Assembly (NCBI GenBank): GCA_037956075.1
Contig: CP138327.1
Coordinates: 1,434,296 to 1,498,295, forward strand
Origin: Catillopecten margaritatus gill symbiont
Lineage (GTDB): Bacteria > Pseudomonadota > Gammaproteobacteria > PS1 > Pseudothioglobaceae
Direction: 5' to 3'
DNA: 64,000 bases
The notes under the pieces were generated by a model that was not told the DNA's origin, did no database searches, and saw nothing but the letters and a program-made list of their open reading frames with translations. Below, piece after piece: positions 22,231 through 33,557 of this stretch (position 1 is the first letter of the stretch; the number at the start of each line of letters is the position of its first letter). Made by a program: the position numbers and the translations under genes.

Positions 22231-22244
22231 GAATGAAGAAAATT

Positions 22245-22517
22245 ATGAATAGTGTTAGTGTTAATAAATTTAGAGATAACTTAAAAAGTTTTGTCGATCA
22301 GTCTTATTCTGATCACGAACCTCTTAAGGTTACACGCAGAAATGCACAGGATTTTGTGGTGATGAGTGCAGAGGATTATGCGAGTGAGCAAGAAACGCTG
22401 TATATTTTGCAAAATTCCGATTTAATGAGGCAATTTAATGAAGCGTTAAAAACTCAAAAGGATGGAACAGGTTACAGACCGACTGCTGAGGAAATGGATG
22501 AAATCCTTAGTTCTTGA
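22245..22517 (+). CDS. yefM: Antitoxin YefM
   Basis: A 90-residue Phd/YefM-family antitoxin. SVSVNKFRDNLKSFVDQ at the N-terminus and RNAQDFVVMSAEDYASEQETLYIL are characteristic. The protein binds its operator through the N-terminal part and neutralises YoeB with the C-terminal part. I prefer the ATG at 22245 over 22233 because MNSVSVNKFR is the conserved beginning. It overlaps the toxin gene by 20 bases and lies behind a strong promoter with TGTACA operator cores. Confidence 0.9.
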   Translation: MNSVSVNKFRDNLKSFVDQSYSDHEPLKVTRRNAQDFVVMSAEDYASEQETLYILQNSDLMRQFNEALKTQKDGTGYRPTAEEMDEILSS

Positions 22518-22782
22518 GGGTAACGCTTGGTTTTCCTATGAAAAACTAAGAGAAAATGACAAGAGAGTGCATAAGGCATTAGTCAAAATATTGAAAGACA
22601 TATTACGAAATGACCCACGAGAAGGAATTGGAAAGCCAGAGCCTTTGAAATATAATTTAAATGGATATTGGTCTCGTAGAATCAGTCAAAAAGATAGGGT
22701 TGTTTATAGATTTGATGAAAATAGCGTTTATGTTATTGCCATTGGCGGTCATTACGATCAAGTTAATTTAAAATTACACTAA
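22498..22782 (+). CDS. yoeB: Toxin YoeB (ribosome-dependent mRNA interferase)
   Basis: About 94 residues of the RelE/YoeB fold, starting at ATG 22498 inside the antitoxin gene. KPEPLKYNLNGYWSRRIS, DRVVYRF and the end GHYDQ hold the conserved catalytic Glu, Arg, His and Tyr of YoeB. The toxin cleaves mRNA in the ribosomal A site. Its last 20 bases overlap the 3' end of waaA on the other strand. No damage is visible, so the module is probably functional. Confidence 0.9.
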   Translation: MKSLVLEGNAWFSYEKLRENDKRVHKALVKILKDILRNDPREGIGKPEPLKYNLNGYWSRRISQKDRVVYRFDENSVYVIAIGGHYDQVNLKLH

Positions 22783-25199: not shown

Positions 25200-25967
25200 A
25201 TGAAAAATAGATGGGTGATTAAAATCGGCTCCGCCCTGCTCACGAATGACGGCAAGGGTTTAGACAAAGTCGCCATCGCCTCATGGGTAGCACAAATCGC
25301 CGAACTCAAGCAACAAGGTATTGAAGTAATACTGGTCTCCAGCGGTGCCATCGCCGAAGGCATCAAACGCCTCGGTTGGAACACACGCCCAGAAAAAATC
25401 CATCAACTACAAGCCGCCGCTGCCATCGGACAAATGGGCTTAGTGCAAACCTACGAAACTTTATTCGCCAAGCAAAACATCCACACCGCGCAAGTATTGC
25501 TAACACACAATGACCTCGCAAACAAAGGACAAAGCAACAACATCAGTGCCACCCTTAACGAATTGTTAAAAATGGGCGTCGTGCCAATCGTCAACGAAAA
25601 TGACACCGTTGCCACCGAAGAAATTAAATTCGGCGACAACGACACCTTGGCCGCGCTAGTCGCCAATTTAGTCGGTGCCACACAATTGGTTATTTTGACC
25701 GACCAAGGCGGTGTCTATGACGCTGACCCACGCCAAAATACTGATGCACAATTGATTAAAAAAATCAGTATTACTGACGAAAAATTAGAAAGAGTCGCTG
25801 GCAGAATAGGCGGCTCCCTCGGCTCTGGCGGTATGCACACCAAAGTTTTAGCCGCCCAAACTGCCGCTAAAACCAACATCAATACCATCATCGCCTCGGG
25901 TAAAGAGAACGATGTTTTGTCTCGTTTGGGTAAAGGGGAGGCGATAGGAACCTTGGTTTTCTGTTAA
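25200..25967 (+). CDS. proB: Glutamate 5-kinase, catalytic domain only
   Basis: The enzyme phosphorylates glutamate in the first step of proline synthesis. The 255 residues form the amino-acid-kinase domain: [12 protein letters not shown] (5-16), [22 protein letters not shown] and [12 protein letters not shown]. The C-terminal PUA domain found in the Escherichia coli enzyme (367 residues) is absent, as in some other bacteria, so feedback control by proline may differ. It follows the inverted-repeat element and is followed after four bases by the RelA/SpoT-domain gene. Confidence 0.95.
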
Positions 25968-25971
25968 GATA

Positions 25972-27108
25972 ATGGCAACAAAAGCAAAAATTAATCAAGC
26001 TGGGCAAAGGCTAATCAATAAAGAAAGCCAAGTTTCAACAGAAGAAGCAAATTTAATACTTCAACAATTTAGGTCAATTCATCAGCATCCTATGTCTTTA
26101 TTTCGTCATATGATGGAGAGAAAATTAAAAAAACATAGCATTAAATCCACCCCTGTTCAAAGGCTTAAAAGAATACCGTCAATTATTAAAAAGCTTAAAA
26201 TTCAGAAGAAAATGAAATTATCTAGAATGCAAGATATTGGTGGTTTAAGAATTATTTTGAATAACATGCAAGAGGTTGATTTAGTTAGAGATGAAATTAA
26301 AAAAGTAGAAAAACACGGGAGTTTTAAATTTACATTTGCAAACGAGAAAAATTATATTGAAAACCCTCCTGAAAGTGGATATAGAAGTATTCACATGGTG
26401 TATAAATACGACAAAAATATCGAAATAGAAAAACAATGCAGGGTGGAAATACAAATAAGAACAAAACTTCAGCATTCTTGGGCAACGGCAGTAGAAGTGC
26501 TGGGAACATATTTAAACCAACCATTAAAACAAAGCCTAGGCGAGAGTGAATACTTGAATATATTCAAAGATATAAGTAAGCTGTTTGTTACTTTGGAAAA
26601 AAGAAATATAGATATAGATTACGACTTTATAAAAAAAGTTCAAAAAGATATTGCAAGCGTAGAGTTATTTGATAAGTTGCAAAGTTTTAATATGCTTTTT
26701 AGGCATCTTAATGACAGTAACAATGTTCAAGGACAGTATGTCTTGTTAAAAATGAATTTTAAAGAAAAGGTTGTTGAAATAGCTCAGTATGGAAAGGTTA
26801 AATTTGAGCAAGCTAATAAAGATTACTCGAAAATGGAGTTGGACAATTTTGCTAATAAAGCAGTTGAGGTTGTGTTGTTATCAATACAAGATATTAAAAA
26901 ATTAAAACAATCGTATCCCAACTATTTTATGGATACAACAGAATTTATTAACAACTTAGATAAACTATTTAATTTCACAAAAGAAATGCAAGAATTACAA
27001 CAATTAATTGACAATTCAAAGGATGAAAAGCACAAAGAATTGTTAAGTAAAATGCTGGACGATATTTTTAAAAATACGCTTAAGTCATTTAGCAGGAGTA
27101 AGAAATAA
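25972..27108 (+). CDS. RelA/SpoT-domain nucleotidyltransferase with C-terminal extension
   Basis: The 378 residues contain a (p)ppGpp-synthetase-type domain: RLKRIPSIIKKL (ATP-side basic motif, about 63-74), MQDIGGLRIIL (metal Asp, about 84-94), PESGYRSIHMVYKY (about 130-143) and VEIQIRTKLQHSW (about 156-168). All usual catalytic positions appear kept, so pyrophosphate transfer to a nucleotide or to RNA is plausible. No hydrolase domain is present. The C-terminal 190 residues are helical and Lys-rich and I do not recognise them. The gene is AT-rich, sits between proB and folK, and its TAA shares one base with the ATG of the next gene. It is not the housekeeping RelA or SpoT; toxic small alarmone synthetases of toxin-antitoxin or anti-phage systems are the nearest concept. 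Confidence 0.82.
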   Translation: MATKAKINQAGQRLINKESQVSTEEANLILQQFRSIHQHPMSLFRHMMERKLKKHSIKSTPVQRLKRIPSIIKKLKIQKKMKLSRMQDIGGLRIILNNMQEVDLVRDEIKKVEKHGSFKFTFANEKNYIENPPESGYRSIHMVYKYDKNIEIEKQCRVEIQIRTKLQHSWATAVEVLGTYLNQPLKQSLGESEYLNIFKDISKLFVTLEKRNIDIDYDFIKKVQKDIASVELFDKLQSFNMLFRHLNDSNNVQGQYVLLKMNFKEKVVEIAQYGKVKFEQANKDYSKMELDNFANKAVEVVLLSIQDIKKLKQSYPNYFMDTTEFINNLDKLFNFTKEMQELQQLIDNSKDEKHKELLSKMLDDIFKNTLKSFSRSKK

Positions 27109-27383
27109 TGTCTTTATTGATGGAAGAATATGACAGACTGGAAGAAATTCATAATAAGATTATTATGGACACCGCATTGTCTGGTGAACTGGAAGAGTTT
27201 TTGCATCTAATTGTAAAAAGTGGTAATGAAGCTGAAATGCTAAGTTATATGCGTGTTCTTGGTTTTTTTTCAATAGAAGAAATAGTGCAGCACTTGACTC
27301 AAGAGAAAAAAAATGAAGGAATCTCAACTGGCTTGGCAATTGCTGGCGGAGCGATATTGTTGGCAGCTTTACTAAGTAAATAA
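27108..27383 (+). CDS. Small protein with C-terminal membrane segment, partner of RelA/SpoT-domain gene
   Basis: The 91 residues start with acidic helices (MEEYDRLEEIHNKII) and end in a glycine/alanine-rich hydrophobic segment (TGLAIAGGAILLAALLSK) that could be a tail anchor. The ATG at 27108 overlaps the stop of the upstream gene (TAATG), implying strict co-translation. I do not recognise a family. The arrangement suggests an antitoxin, sensor or membrane effector for the RelA/SpoT protein; this is inference only. Confidence 0.65.
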   Translation: MSLLMEEYDRLEEIHNKIIMDTALSGELEEFLHLIVKSGNEAEMLSYMRVLGFFSIEEIVQHLTQEKKNEGISTGLAIAGGAILLAALLSK

Positions 27384-27398
27384 AGGACTGTAGTAAGT

Positions 27399-27872
27399 AT
27401 GCTCGCTTATATCGGACTAGGTTCCAACCTAAACAACCCAAAACAGCAAATCAAAGATGCACTAATCGCACTCAATACCGAATCCGATGTTAAGGTAGTT
27501 GGCTTGTCGAGTTTGTATCAATCGCCACCCATTGACGGCACTAAGCAACCCGATTATATCAATGTAGTGTGTGAAGTGCATACGCATCTCACGGCTCTGG
27601 AATTACTTTATGTTTGTCAGGATATTGAGACTAAGCAGCATCGAGTGCGTGAGAAAAAATGGGGAGCAAGGACGATTGATTTGGATATTATTACTTATGG
27701 CGTGCAGGTGATTGCATCAAAGCAGTTAATTGTGCCACATCCTGAGATGATGAATCGTGCTTTTGTGTTGGTGCCATTGGCGGAGATTGAGCCTGATTTT
27801 AAAGTGCCAGTTTTGGGTCCAATTCAGGAATTAATTGATAAAATAGACATTTCCCAATTAATTAAATTGTAA
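27399..27872 (+). CDS. folK: 2-amino-4-hydroxy-6-hydroxymethyldihydropteridine pyrophosphokinase
   Basis: HPPK transfers pyrophosphate from ATP to the pterin in folate synthesis. The 157 residues match family length. YIGLGSNLNNP at the start and WGARTIDLDIITYG (about 88-101) with the metal-binding Asp pair are diagnostic, as is VPHPEMMNRAFVLVPLAEI. The ATG at 27399 follows the RelA/SpoT bicistron by 15 bases, which suggests the pair was inserted into a proB-folK run of genes. Confidence 0.95.
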   Translation: MLAYIGLGSNLNNPKQQIKDALIALNTESDVKVVGLSSLYQSPPIDGTKQPDYINVVCEVHTHLTALELLYVCQDIETKQHRVREKKWGARTIDLDIITYGVQVIASKQLIVPHPEMMNRAFVLVPLAEIEPDFKVPVLGPIQELIDKIDISQLIKL

Positions 27873-28703: not shown

Positions 28704-31700
28704 ATGAACATTGCTTTTTTAGATATTGAAGTTAATACGACAAGTAATCAAATTGATAGTTTAGGCTATCTATCTGCACAATCTGATTTTAAAACCCACT
28801 CTATAACAGAGGTTAGAAGGTGTTGTGAGGTTGAAAAAAATGCCTTTATTTGTGGGCATAATTTTATTAATCATGATGCAAAGTTTTTAGCAGCAACAAG
28901 TTTCAATCAAATATTACAAAAAGTTGAGATTATTGATACTTTGTATCTTTCAATGCTGCTGTTTACCAATAAACAGACGCATAAATTAAATAAACCTTAT
29001 AAAGATAATTTAATTGATATTGGAAATGACCCACTTATAGACGCAGAAAATACCAAGGTATTATTCGAGAAATTGAATCAAGAATTTGATGTATTAAGTG
29101 AGAATTATCAGCAATTATTTTGTAATTTATTAAAAGATAATCAGTATTTTTCAGGGTTTTTTGCTTATAAAAACAAGGGTGAAAAATCAATTGATACCTA
29201 TCAACAGATAGAAAATTTGGTTGCAATTGAGAAAGCAAGATATTTAGAAATTGAAGTGCAATACCCCGTTGAAGTTGCTTTTGTTATCTCTTATTTAGCA
29301 ATGGGAATGGAAGGGGTAATATCGCCAATTATTTTAAATAATTACCCGAATGTCGTTACCGTGTTAAAGCAGTTGGTTTGTAATAAAGGCGTTGCCGATG
29401 TTGCTCAATTTGCCATGGATGAATTTGGCGTTGACGGGTTTAGAAAATTTGACAAAAATACCAAAGAAGCAACGGCGGATTTGTTTGTCAATGGCAAAGT
29501 TTATCAAAAAGAAATTATAGAACAAGCGATGGGTTCGGAGTCTCTGTTGGCTATTTTGCCAACGGGCGGTGGAAAAACCCTAACTTTTCAAATTCCTGCT
29601 TTAATTAAAGCACAACAATATAAGGGGTTAAGTGTTGTTATATCGCCACTTCAGGCTTTAATGAAAGACCAAGTTGATAGTTTTAAACGCAATAATAACA
29701 ATTTCAAAGTTATTGCTATTAGTGGCTATTTAAGCCCTATAGAACGACAAAATGCCATTATTGAAGTTGAAAATGGTGCGGTTGATATGCTTTATTTGGC
29801 ACCAGAGTCGTTACGCTCGAATACAATTTTTAAGGCGTTAAAAAGTAGGGTTATTGAGCGTTTTATTATTGATGAAGCGCATTGTTTCTCATCTTGGGGT
29901 CATGATTTTAGACATGATTATTATTTTATTGCCACCACTATTAAAGAATTAGAGAAATCCAGTTTTCAGCCACACATCCCCGTTTCTTGTTTTACAGCCA
30001 CCGCTAAACCAGAGGTTATTAAGGACATTAAAAAATATTTTGAAGAGAAGTTGGGTATTCATTTAAATGAATTTATCGCTTCTGTTGAGCGTTACAATTT
30101 AGAATACAAGGTTGAAAAGGTAGAGAATGATAAGGAAAAATACGAAAAACTTATTCAGATTTTAAGTGAATTAGAAAGAAGTGAGGATGAGAAAAATCCC
30201 ACCATTATTTACAGCCCTCAAAATGCTAGATTGTGCAAAGAATTGAGCGAAAAATTACAAGACGATGAGCGCCTACATCCGTTTAATTTGGCAATAGAAC
30301 CTTTTTATTCTAAACTGGACGACGATAAAGAAAACGGAAAAAGAGATAAAAATTCTAGAGGAAAAAGTGAAATACTAGCGGATTTTATTGACGATAAAGT
30401 CGATATTGTTATTGCGACAACCGCCTTTGGTATGGGCATTGACAAGGCGAATATCAGAACCATCATTCATTATGAGCAGTCTGATAGTTTGGAATCTTAT
30501 TTGCAAGAATCAGGGCGAGGGGCGCGCGATGAAAATATAAAGGCCCAGTGTTTTGTTTTGTATTCTAAAGAGGAATTTAACCGTTCGTTTAATCAACTTA
30601 ATCGTTCAAAAGTTGATTTTTCCGAGATTAAACGCATTATTAAGGCACTTAAAAAGCGTAAAAATGACCAACTTTATTTATCTCCTAAGGAAATTGCCAG
30701 AGAAATAGGTGTGGACATTGAAAATAGTGAGGTTGATTATGAGGTTGTCATCAAAACAGCATTATCAGAATTAGAAAAACATGGCATTGTTGAGCGAGGT
30801 CGAAATAGTTATAAAATGTTTGCAACTTCGGTTAGCCAAAGTGAAGAAAAACAAGGTATGCCTTATGTTCATGAAGTTTTAGACCCGAAAAAAGAACAAG
30901 CACCCTATAACAAACTTTATCAGTCTATGATTTTGGTAATGCAAAATATTATTCAACGCTCTAAACTGGATGCAATTGAGACGGATGATTTATCAGATAT
31001 TGTTGGGATTCGGCGTAAGGAGATGTTTGAGGTTTTATATCAGTTACAAAAAGATGGGTTGTTAAAATTTGAAGATGATATTAGTGTTTTTATTAAAAAT
31101 TCCGTTAAAAAGGAGTTTGAAAGGCATTTTAAAATAGAGCAGGAGGTATTTGAAGCATTTAAAGCTTGTTCAAATTATGAAAGTATTAATTTGCGAGCGC
31201 TTAATAAAGACGATGTTAATCGAGTAGATTTGTTTAAGCAGATTATTCAGAGTTGGGGTTTTTTATCTAAAATAGCCAACAACGACTTTTCAGTAAAATT
31301 TAAAAGAGATTTCTGCCATTTTGAATGTAATACACTGGATAGGTTGGGGCAATTAATACAGGCCAGAAGGACATTGTCAGAATTTATTATTACTGAATTG
31401 TTAAAAAAAATAGGCACTAATAACAAAGCAAAAGAAGTTGATTTTTCAAGTAATAGCTTAAAAATAAGTTACCCTTCTAATACTTTAACGATAGAATCTT
31501 ATCACCACACTTTTGTATATTTGCATGATATGCTAAAAGGTTTTGAGTTACGCCGAGGGCGTTTGATTTATTATCAGGCTCTAAGTATAAAGAAACAGGA
31601 AAAGATGAAGGAAAGGGCGCCTTATAAAAGGGCTGATTACAAGAAAGGGTTGGAGCGTTATTATGAGTTAAAAATTGAATCTATTCATATTCACATTGCA

Positions 31701-33557
31701 TTTTTAGAGAAACTATTGACAGAAAGTTGGGGCAAGACAAAAGACTTTGTTAAAGATTATTTTTCTATGGAGTATGTGCACTTTAAGAGGGTGTATAAGT
31801 TTGATGGTGCGGCAATAAAACGCCCTGTTACTGAAGAAAGATATAGGCAAATATTGCACGATTTAAACGCCGAGCAAAAGCAAATTTTTGAGGATAAAAA
31901 TTCAGATGCAATGATGGTGCTTGCTGGACCTGGCAGCGGAAAGACTAAAACTTTGGTGCATAAAATTGCCTCACTTATCACCATTGAGGGCAATAAACCA
32001 GACTATTTTTTAATGCTGGCACATTCTCGTGTGGCAGTTGCTGATTTTAGAGAAAAACTAAAGGCGTTAATCGGCAATCAAGTTTACGATGTGCAAATTC
32101 ATACTTTTCATGCTTTCGCTATTTCGTTACTAGGTAGAAATATTGGTGATGATGGAGATTTGCAAGATGTCGTGGAAAAAGCGACACAATTATTGGAAAG
32201 TGGAAATGCGTCTATGTCGTTTGTTAATATGTTGGTAATTGATGAGTACCAAGATGTGGGCGGGCAAAGTTATGAATTTATCAAAGCCATTCATCGACAA
32301 ATGGGGGAGGGTAAAGATAAGAGGATTATTGCTGTGGGCGATGATGATCAATGTATTAAAGATTTTGGCAAGGATAAGGCGGATATAAAATACATTCAAG
32401 AATTTGGAGCCTATTTTACGAGTGAACAAGAAGGTATTGAGTTTTCTCAATATCAACTTTTAACGAATTACAGGAGCTGCACTAATATTGTAGATTTTTT
32501 TACCCAATTTAGCGATGTGATTGGCGTGCGTTTAAAAACTAAGCCATTGAAAGTATATAGAAAATCTCCTGGCAGTGTTTCACTTGCTTATTATGAAAGA
32601 GGCAGTTATTATGATAATTTATTGAGCAACATTAAAAATAATAAATCTAACGACATTGCTATTCTTGCAAGGACTAACCAAGAGGTTTTGTCCATTTATT
32701 CAATGTTGGTTTCAAACGGAATAAAGGCACGCTATATTATTAATAACCATGGTTTTTCGTTAGGTGGCTTATTGGAGTTACAAGAGTTTCTTCAAGATTG
32801 GAAATTGAACAAAAATTTTGAAAAAAGCAGAGAAAATTCAGACAAAAAATATCATAAATCTACAAATAATTTGCTGAAAAACCAAGTATTAGATGTGTTT
32901 GAGGATGAATACCAGCAAGAAATTAAAAAATCTCAGAGTCATTTTATTCGTGTATTTGAGCAATATTTGTCTAAAATTGAGTTTGATGAATTTAAACAAA
33001 GTAGGGTAAAGGTAATTGTATCAACAATACATAAATCCAAAGGCAAAGAATGGAGTGATGTTTATCTGTGTATTGATGAGCAATTTTTCAAAACTGGTGA
33101 ACAAGGTGAAAGTGATAAGCGATTAGCCTATGTTGCCATTACTAGAGCTAAAAATAACTTATTTATTCATTCTAAATCTCCATTTTTTAATCGTTTTATC
33201 AAACCTGAAGTTTACAATGTTAATGACAAAAAACTGGAAACGATTGTTTTATTGTCGGGATTGTCCGATATCAAGCTAAGTGCTAATTATAGTAAACAAG
33301 GTATTATCAAGACATTGCCTATGGCTGGGGAAGAGGTTCAAATAGTAGAAAATGAAAACTACATTAGCGTTATGAAGGATAATAATCAAATTTCTAGTTT
33401 GTCAATTTCTATGGTTAATAAAATAAAACAACAACAGAATAATGGCTATATTTTACAAAAAGCAGAAATTGAAAATGTGGTTGTTTGGAGGGATAAGAAA
33501 AGTGATGAAACATTCAATCAAGTCTTATGCAAAATTTATTTAACCCAAGCACTATAA
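28704..33557 (+). CDS. Exonuclease-like / RecQ helicase / UvrD helicase fusion protein
   Basis: A 1617-residue protein with three parts. Residues 1-130 resemble a DEDD 3'-5' exonuclease: FLDIEVN (Asp, Glu), CGHNFINHDAKFL (His-Asn...His-Asp) and LIDAENTKVLF (late Asp). Residues about 265-650 are a RecQ-type helicase: LPTGGGKTLTFQIP (Walker A), FIIDEAHCFSSWGHDFR (DEAH and the RecQ aromatic loop), TAFGMGIDKANIR and ESGRGARDEN. Residues about 1050-1530 are a UvrD-type helicase: LAGPGSGKTKTLVHK, VIDEYQDVGGQ, VSTIHKSKGKEW and VAITRAKN. The middle region is helical. Similar RecQ-UvrD giants are known, mainly in Bacteroidetes. It starts five bases after panB and ends two bases before an inverted-repeat element that precedes panC. 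A role in DNA repair or defence is inferred. Confidence 0.87.
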   Translation: MNIAFLDIEVNTTSNQIDSLGYLSAQSDFKTHSITEVRRCCEVEKNAFICGHNFINHDAKFLAATSFNQILQKVEIIDTLYLSMLLFTNKQTHKLNKPYKDNLIDIGNDPLIDAENTKVLFEKLNQEFDVLSENYQQLFCNLLKDNQYFSGFFAYKNKGEKSIDTYQQIENLVAIEKARYLEIEVQYPVEVAFVISYLAMGMEGVISPIILNNYPNVVTVLKQLVCNKGVADVAQFAMDEFGVDGFRKFDKNTKEATADLFVNGKVYQKEIIEQAMGSESLLAILPTGGGKTLTFQIPALIKAQQYKGLSVVISPLQALMKDQVDSFKRNNNNFKVIAISGYLSPIERQNAIIEVENGAVDMLYLAPESLRSNTIFKALKSRVIERFIIDEAHCFSSWGHDFRHDYYFIATTIKELEKSSFQPHIPVSCFTATAKPEVIKDIKKYFEEKLGIHLNEFIASVERYNLEYKVEKVENDKEKYEKLIQILSELERSEDEKNPTIIYSPQNARLCKELSEKLQDDERLHPFNLAIEPFYSKLDDDKENGKRDKNSRGKSEILADFIDDKVDIVIATTAFGMGIDKANIRTIIHYEQSDSLESYLQESGRGARDENIKAQCFVLYSKEEFNRSFNQLNRSKVDFSEIKRIIKALKKRKNDQLYLSPKEIAREIGVDIENSEVDYEVVIKTALSELEKHGIVERGRNSYKMFATSVSQSEEKQGMPYVHEVLDPKKEQAPYNKLYQSMILVMQNIIQRSKLDAIETDDLSDIVGIRRKEMFEVLYQLQKDGLLKFEDDISVFIKNSVKKEFERHFKIEQEVFEAFKACSNYESINLRALNKDDVNRVDLFKQIIQSWGFLSKIANNDFSVKFKRDFCHFECNTLDRLGQLIQARRTLSEFIITELLKKIGTNNKAKEVDFSSNSLKISYPSNTLTIESYHHTFVYLHDMLKGFELRRGRLIYYQALSIKKQEKMKERAPYKRADYKKGLERYYELKIESIHIHIAFLEKLLTESWGKTKDFVKDYFSMEYVHFKRVYKFDGAAIKRPVTEERYRQILHDLNAEQKQIFEDKNSDAMMVLAGPGSGKTKTLVHKIASLITIEGNKPDYFLMLAHSRVAVADFREKLKALIGNQVYDVQIHTFHAFAISLLGRNIGDDGDLQDVVEKATQLLESGNASMSFVNMLVIDEYQDVGGQSYEFIKAIHRQMGEGKDKRIIAVGDDDQCIKDFGKDKADIKYIQEFGAYFTSEQEGIEFSQYQLLTNYRSCTNIVDFFTQFSDVIGVRLKTKPLKVYRKSPGSVSLAYYERGSYYDNLLSNIKNNKSNDIAILARTNQEVLSIYSMLVSNGIKARYIINNHGFSLGGLLELQEFLQDWKLNKNFEKSRENSDKKYHKSTNNLLKNQVLDVFEDEYQQEIKKSQSHFIRVFEQYLSKIEFDEFKQSRVKVIVSTIHKSKGKEWSDVYLCIDEQFFKTGEQGESDKRLAYVAITRAKNNLFIHSKSPFFNRFIKPEVYNVNDKKLETIVLLSGLSDIKLSANYSKQGIIKTLPMAGEEVQIVENENYISVMKDNNQISSLSISMVNKIKQQQNNGYILQKAEIENVVVWRDKKSDETFNQVLCKIYLTQAL

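Follow-up and report, generated by a model that had tools for sequence, protein, structure and literature searches.

What is a gene for a RelA/SpoT-domain protein doing between proB and folK in the gill symbiont of Catillopecten margaritatus, and why does it overlap a second gene for a protein of only 91 residues with a hydrophobic end? The window analysed here, i.e., the whole stretch of 64,000 nucleotides (contig CP138327.1, positions 1,434,296 to 1,498,295), carries the larger gene, with 378 codons, at 25972..27108 and the smaller one at 27108..27383, both on the forward (+) strand. The stop codon TAA of the former (27106-27108) and the start codon ATG of the latter (27108-27110) have one base in common, and this TAATG overlap (27106..27110, +), by which a preliminary description had tied the two genes together, as well as the two open reading frames, are present as it reported. 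On balance, we favour the view that the pair is a phage-defence module composed of a fused CapRel and a membrane adaptor. The evidence is strongest for the identity of the large protein and becomes more tentative toward the role of the small one.

Insertion site and identity of the large protein

The pair is flanked by proB (25200..25967, +) on the left and folK (27399..27872, +) on the right. The GC content of proB is 0.48 and that of folK 0.41, compared with 0.29 for the capRel-like gene and 0.35 for its small neighbour. Elsewhere in the genus, proB and folK are neighbours in five genomes (G001, G006, G007, G009 and G010); they are contiguous with a 16-nt gap in G006, overlap in G007, and lie next to each other in G001, G009 and G010. 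The drop in GC across the insert and the adjacency of both genes in relatives bear out the earlier claim that the pair interrupts the proB-folK region. The junction of the Bathymodiolus brooksi symbiont (G003) and of G011 is occupied by an inserted ORF, which we take, by recognition, to encode a prepilin peptidase-like protein. In G004 the junction contains decayed versions of this CapRel and of the small gene, and after them a pair of ORFs that, again by recognition, is presumably VapBC-like. As the site is empty in some relatives and holds differing inserts in G003/G011 and in G004, insertion at proB-folK is variable, and the window's insert there is intact. A promoter scan was uninformative, since its counts equalled those of shuffled sequences.

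Two other features of the window may be recorded here. An overlapping ORF pair at 22233-22782 resembles a toxin-antitoxin system of the YefM/YoeB type. Between panB and panC, a stretch with a GC content of 0.33 (28704-33557) encodes a 1617-aa protein in which RecQ-like and UvrD-like helicase regions lie at about 265-650 and about 1045-1515, respectively; near full-length copies (72%) occur in G003 and G011, a split copy in G002, and no copy in the remaining genus members searched.

The 378-aa protein contains a single Pfam domain, RelA_SpoT (residues 63-173, E=1.9e-20), and no hydrolase domain was found in it with Pfam; its catalytic residues are in place, in keeping with the earlier reading of a synthetase without a hydrolase. 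It is matched by the PADLOC model PDC-S33 over residues 3-334 (E=1e-98, model positions 9-343 of 349) and by CapRel-SJ46 (7ZTB/9ERV) over residues 3-329 (E=9e-31), and it also matched the SJ46 phage gene itself in a tblastn search. Within the toxSYNTH core (residues 63-181; 26158..26514, +), as delimited by alignment and a residue map, R64, R93 and Y137 align with R79, R116 and the G-loop Y155 of CapRel-SJ46, and these positions are invariant in an alignment of 93 sequences. The AlphaFold2 model, built from 93 window and locus sequences (pLDDT 89.4, pTM 0.85), predicts a pseudo-zinc-finger region at residues 255-304 (26734..26883, +) with strands 256-262 and 267-273, helix 275-291 and strand 298-304, accompanied by flanking helices, in the region aligned to 7ZTB/9ERV. 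This topology is the one described for CapRel-SJ46 (PMC9712102). The YXXY neutralisation motif takes the form YPNY at residues 315-318 (26914..26925, +), equivalent to 352-355 of SJ46; among the 93 sequences Y315 and P316 are invariant and Y318 nearly so. Of the residues that scaffold or dock the motif in SJ46, V338 and L339 are identical in the window protein, and A341, A351 and A77 are replaced by S, S and V, respectively.

The three best PDB matches of the model are CapRel structures, with 9ERV and 7ZTB on top (E down to 2e-19), and the next best are small alarmone synthetases that match in the catalytic domain only. The large protein is thus almost certainly a CapRel-type enzyme, i.e., a fused toxin-antitoxin of the toxSAS class; all sequence elements for the CapRel mechanism are present, and enzymatic activity may be predicted from them. 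Most of what had been noted as a long helical C-terminus is the built-in antitoxin and phage sensor of CapRel. The preliminary description had rightly seen in the locus a candidate toxic synthetase with a possible defence role, but it had also found the arrangement unlike any it recognised, and this is correct in part only: the large protein is a fused CapRel, and what is unusual is a helical extension of about 45 residues at its end, together with the small, candidate tail-anchored partner.

CapRel homologues occur in phage SJ46, on plasmids and in 80 fetched viral contigs. The searches matched 100 plasmid records and 10 phage records, three of the latter near full length, and at least 291 genome places were confirmed; a further 121 matches lay in viral contigs. 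Within the window's own genus, to which the thiotrophic gill symbionts of B. brooksi and B. heckerae also belong, CapRel was otherwise found only in G003, G004 and G007. The window and B. brooksi proteins group as sisters in a maximum-likelihood tree (100/99), where the closest relative outside this pair is a protein from a Woesebacteria MAG (100/100). This is the distribution of a mobile defence gene and not of a core gene. Nearly all homologues do lack the small gene, but they are scattered and often borne by plasmids or prophages and do not form a stable core. On the basis of the plasmid, phage SJ46 and viral-contig homologues, the patchy presence in relatives and the low GC content of an insert at a variable site, a function in defence is very probable. 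Many phage-immunity genes have been described in these symbionts in a study of the B. thermophilus symbiont (PMC5581435).

The extension and its coupled small gene

The lineage-specific helical extension comprises residues 334-378 (26971..27105, +), and the model places two long helices at the C-terminus (319-348 and 352-373). The usual single-gene CapRel ends soon after YXXY, whereas the window protein has a longer tail and a coupled second gene: 60 residues follow the motif in the window and B. brooksi proteins, the median for 155 other CapRel ORFs being 20. Seven other CapRel ORFs have at least 45 residues in this position, and these are unrelated in sequence by eye. The extension was found in the window, in the B. 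brooksi and B. heckerae symbionts and in the decayed copy of G004. It is the least conserved part of CapRel, with 42% identity between the two intact copies, which argues only weakly for a conserved interface, although a co-evolving interface could look alike.

The small protein ends, as had been stated, in a hydrophobic segment close to its C-terminus. Hydropathy predicts this stretch (residues 72-88; 27321..27371, +) as a candidate tail anchor, with a Kyte-Doolittle mean of 2.06 over 17 residues; the corresponding values are 2.43 in B. brooksi and 2.11 in G011. The tail is short (about 17 residues) and rich in glycine. In a low-confidence AlphaFold2 model (pLDDT 64) it forms a hydrophobic helix preceded by four short helices. 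Residues 1-70 carry a net charge of -9, compared with +2 on the CapRel extension. No YXXY motif is present in the protein, and searches of Pfam, NCBIfam, PADLOC and PHROGs gave no antitoxin family match. Homologues occur in six Thioglobaceae genomes besides the window; so small a family limits the statistics of its co-occurrence with CapRel, part of which is explained by shared ancestry. HMM searches covering 369 genomes from the class and 398 from the phylum returned only the window and G022, and no match was obtained in plasmids (with the window protein as query), in phages (with the G011 copy as query) or in viral contigs.

The B. brooksi symbiont possesses both genes together with the TAATG overlap, at 64% identity for the large and 58% for the small protein, and the overlap is also found in the B. 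heckerae symbiont. When the two intact pairs are compared, differences at the first, second and third codon positions amount to 0.25/0.17/0.41 in the large gene, hence mostly at the third, and to 0.33/0.26/0.40 in the small gene, where the third-position bias is weaker. The recurrence of both genes and their overlap in B. brooksi, along with this bias, indicates that the pairing is more than chance. Five Thioglobaceae genomes hold this CapRel lineage, and traces of both genes are found in all of them: the pair is intact in the window genome (G000) and in G003. In the B. heckerae symbiont (G007) a repeated element breaks it up, and a truncated copy of the small gene is kept; the pair of G004 is decayed, and in G022, from another genus, a deletion has left a piece of CapRel joined to the final ~60 residues of the small protein. 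Two kinds of location are represented, proB-folK in G000 and G004 and the vicinity of an hsdM remnant in G003 and G007, from which it follows that the pair was moved or kept as a unit. The extension and the small gene also have the same distribution. The proposal that the two genes belong together therefore gains support from their overlap, co-location and shared distribution, and in a homologue search every Thioglobaceae genome with at least part of a CapRel of this lineage also had at least part of the small gene immediately after it.

This pairing is confined to a narrow lineage. Among 161 CapRel loci, comprising the window and 160 fetched loci, some of them near-identical, the small-protein profile was detected beside CapRel in three, i.e., the window, B. 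brooksi (L039) and B. heckerae (L040). The extension and the small gene are both missing from 158 of the 160 fetched loci, the exceptions being these two Bathymodiolus thiotrophic symbionts. A general link between CapRel and a coupled small gene was considered and rejected: an ORF of 60-130 aa starts within 20 nt of the CapRel stop in 13 of the 161 loci, and besides the window and L039 none of the 13 matches the small-protein profile. Separately, the CapRel genes of two viral contigs (L197 and L198) are followed by different small genes with a 4-nt overlap, one for a 60-aa hydrophobic protein and one for a 75-aa HTH-like protein. We also observed a short repeated element in L006 and L199, which reads ...LVLAGLRLGLKN.QAGEKWIFDDYSYLCKGL... 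and breaks capRel of the B. heckerae symbiont in two places; a similar element adjoins the lone small gene of G011.

Possible roles of the small protein

In CapRel, docking of the pseudo-zinc-finger on toxSYNTH places YXXY in the ATP site; the enzyme is opened when its C-terminal domain is bound by a phage capsid protein or by Gp54, upon which it pyrophosphorylates tRNA (PMC9712102, PMC11578894, PMC11782079). Autoinhibition, triggering and tRNA modification have been shown for CapRel-SJ46, and we infer them here from conserved residues and the predicted fold. The N-terminal toxSYNTH would be held off by its own pseudo-zinc-finger, with YPNY plugging the ATP site, until a phage protein binds this sensor; the opened enzyme would then modify the 3' CCA end of tRNA, so that translation stops and the infection is aborted. 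The small protein could act on this cycle through its N-terminal helical part, which may bind the extra C-terminal helices of CapRel, and through its hydrophobic tail, which may hold the enzyme at the inner membrane and thereby localise it or tune its triggering. The conserved TAATG overlap, the presence of the pair at different sites and the shared distribution of extension and small gene make it probable that the small protein and CapRel are physical partners. Its assignment as a membrane tether or adaptor is more tentative.

Two genomes bear on this assignment. In G011 the small gene is intact and the genome has no CapRel. In G008 the small domain forms the C-terminus of a 293-aa protein that is unrelated to CapRel and is encoded directly behind an intact hsdM; the fusion gene (L201, 2402-3283) lies between hsdM and a Fic/death-on-curing-like gene. 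The N-terminal part of the 293-aa protein carries RSNLVH, a motif resembling that of HEPN RNases, and the protein may be called HEPN-like from this motif; it had no match of this kind in Pfam, NCBIfam, PADLOC, PHROGs or PDB sequences, and was not matched in a Pfam HEPN_Apea search of G008. That the domain is fused to an unrelated, HEPN-motif protein in one genome and intact without CapRel in another favours an adaptor over a dedicated antitoxin.

Could the small protein nevertheless be a second, trans-acting antitoxin, a safety lock clamped to the C-terminus of CapRel and removed upon infection? Such a two-lock system would account for the translational coupling and for the opposite charges of the small protein and the extension, and an antitoxin gene left intact without its toxin, as in G011, would be tolerable. 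However, the autoinhibitory motif of CapRel is already intact, and with an antitoxin built into the C-terminal region the small protein is not required as one. The other 158 fetched loci manage without the small gene, and the protein has neither a YXXY motif nor an antitoxin family and serves a different protein in G008, all of which render a second lock unlikely. For the same lack of YXXY and of a family match, we rejected the small gene as the antitoxin of a bicistronic toxSAS, whether a pseudo-zinc-finger protein with YXXY, Tis1-like, PanA or a hydrolase.

It is less likely still that the small gene just travels with CapRel as a lineage-specific neighbour without a shared function, as its presence in few genomes and its absence from nearly all fetched CapRel loci might suggest. 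A mere passenger is hard to square with a one-base coupling kept in three genomes, a pairing kept at different sites and in two genera, the restriction of the small gene to CapRels with extra helices, and the domain's fusion to a different protein at a restriction-modification locus.

The recurrence of hsd genes raises another question, namely whether the pair descends from a guard of type I restriction that evolved in hsd operons, sensed inhibition of restriction as PrrC does, and left the operon in the window. In the Woesebacteria locus (L041, 2490-6206), the sister CapRel gene belongs to a type I restriction operon, where it is flanked by hsdM and hsdS and the ORFs overlap. An hsdM C-terminal remnant precedes the pair in B. 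brooksi and B. heckerae, and in G006 a related hsdM is followed directly by a gene that we take, by eye, to be hsdS-like. Together with the G008 fusion behind hsdM, the L041 and G006 arrangements suggest that this CapRel branch was formerly an optional insert in type I restriction operons, where the small domain seems to have been combined with two effectors. The silencing of PrrC by a linked type I restriction-modification enzyme (PMC2610378) would fit such a guard. Against it, hsdM lies near CapRel in only 4 of 161 loci, on which ground we also rejected a general association of CapRel with type I restriction. A gene inside an hsd operon is found only in the sister L041; no hsdM adjoins the window copy, and the hsdM-like match in the window genome is distant and different (148.6-149.3 kb). 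Descent from a guard is thus improbable, and it would bear on the origin of the pair more than on its present function.

A lethal role for the small protein, as a small pore or depolarising peptide that is released or activated when CapRel senses a phage, is very unlikely, even though the C-terminal helix is hydrophobic and glycine-rich. Some 70 residues of soluble helices precede this one short helix, the HEPN-motif protein to which the domain is fused would be its own effector, and the survival of the small gene alone in G011 is unexpected for a toxic peptide. A housekeeping role of the large protein, as a small alarmone synthetase that supplies (p)ppGpp in stress adaptation, is hardly tenable, because, despite a RelA_SpoT domain with all synthetase motifs, the protein scores 63 bits against a cut-off of 320 bits for the YjbM/RelQ model, has CapRel architecture over its full length and is missing from most relatives.

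The membrane tether or adaptor thus remains our preferred role for the small protein. A broader version of it is speculative: the 91-residue domain might be a portable membrane adaptor, working in trans with the CapRel toxin and in cis with a HEPN-type RNase-like toxin, both originally behind hsdM, so that effectors that kill translation would be plugged into one membrane-bound unit for sensing or localisation. Its occurrence on a second, unrelated protein suggests a module that may be used to find further effectors.

Comparison with known systems

CapRel is among the most thoroughly studied immune proteins of bacteria with direct sensing of phage proteins, and it has been described as a self-sufficient, single-chain system. 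CapRel-SJ46 and the window protein, which are ~30% identical, share the toxSYNTH domain with its ATP-stacking arginines and G-loop tyrosine, the pseudo-zinc-finger and YXXY, and both are single-chain toxin-antitoxins in a mobile genetic context. In contrast to CapRel-SJ46, the window protein continues for a further ~45 residues at its C-terminus and is coupled to a candidate tail-anchored partner of 91 aa; the PADLOC PDC-S33 model likewise consists of one protein, and both the extension and the partner gene fall outside it. If our reading is correct, CapRel defence would be open to membrane localisation or to a second layer of control.

In FaRel2/ATfaRel2 and other bicistronic toxSAS systems, toxSYNTH is blocked at the ATP site by a pseudo-zinc-finger bearing YXXY (PMC11782079), as predicted here. 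However, the second gene of FaRel2/ATfaRel2 is the antitoxin (PMC11782079), whereas in the window the antitoxin lies in cis and the second gene lacks YXXY and an antitoxin family. PrrC and its EcoprrI partner (PMC2610378) offer only an analogy in the manner of working, in that a tRNA-directed effector is encoded in or beside hsd genes, as is the sister CapRel in L041; PrrC is an anticodon nuclease of another fold, and the window pair lies outside any hsd operon. Compared with these systems, the type of the enzyme, CapRel, is known, and what is unusual is the extra helical tail and the candidate membrane-inserted partner, seen only in close relatives.
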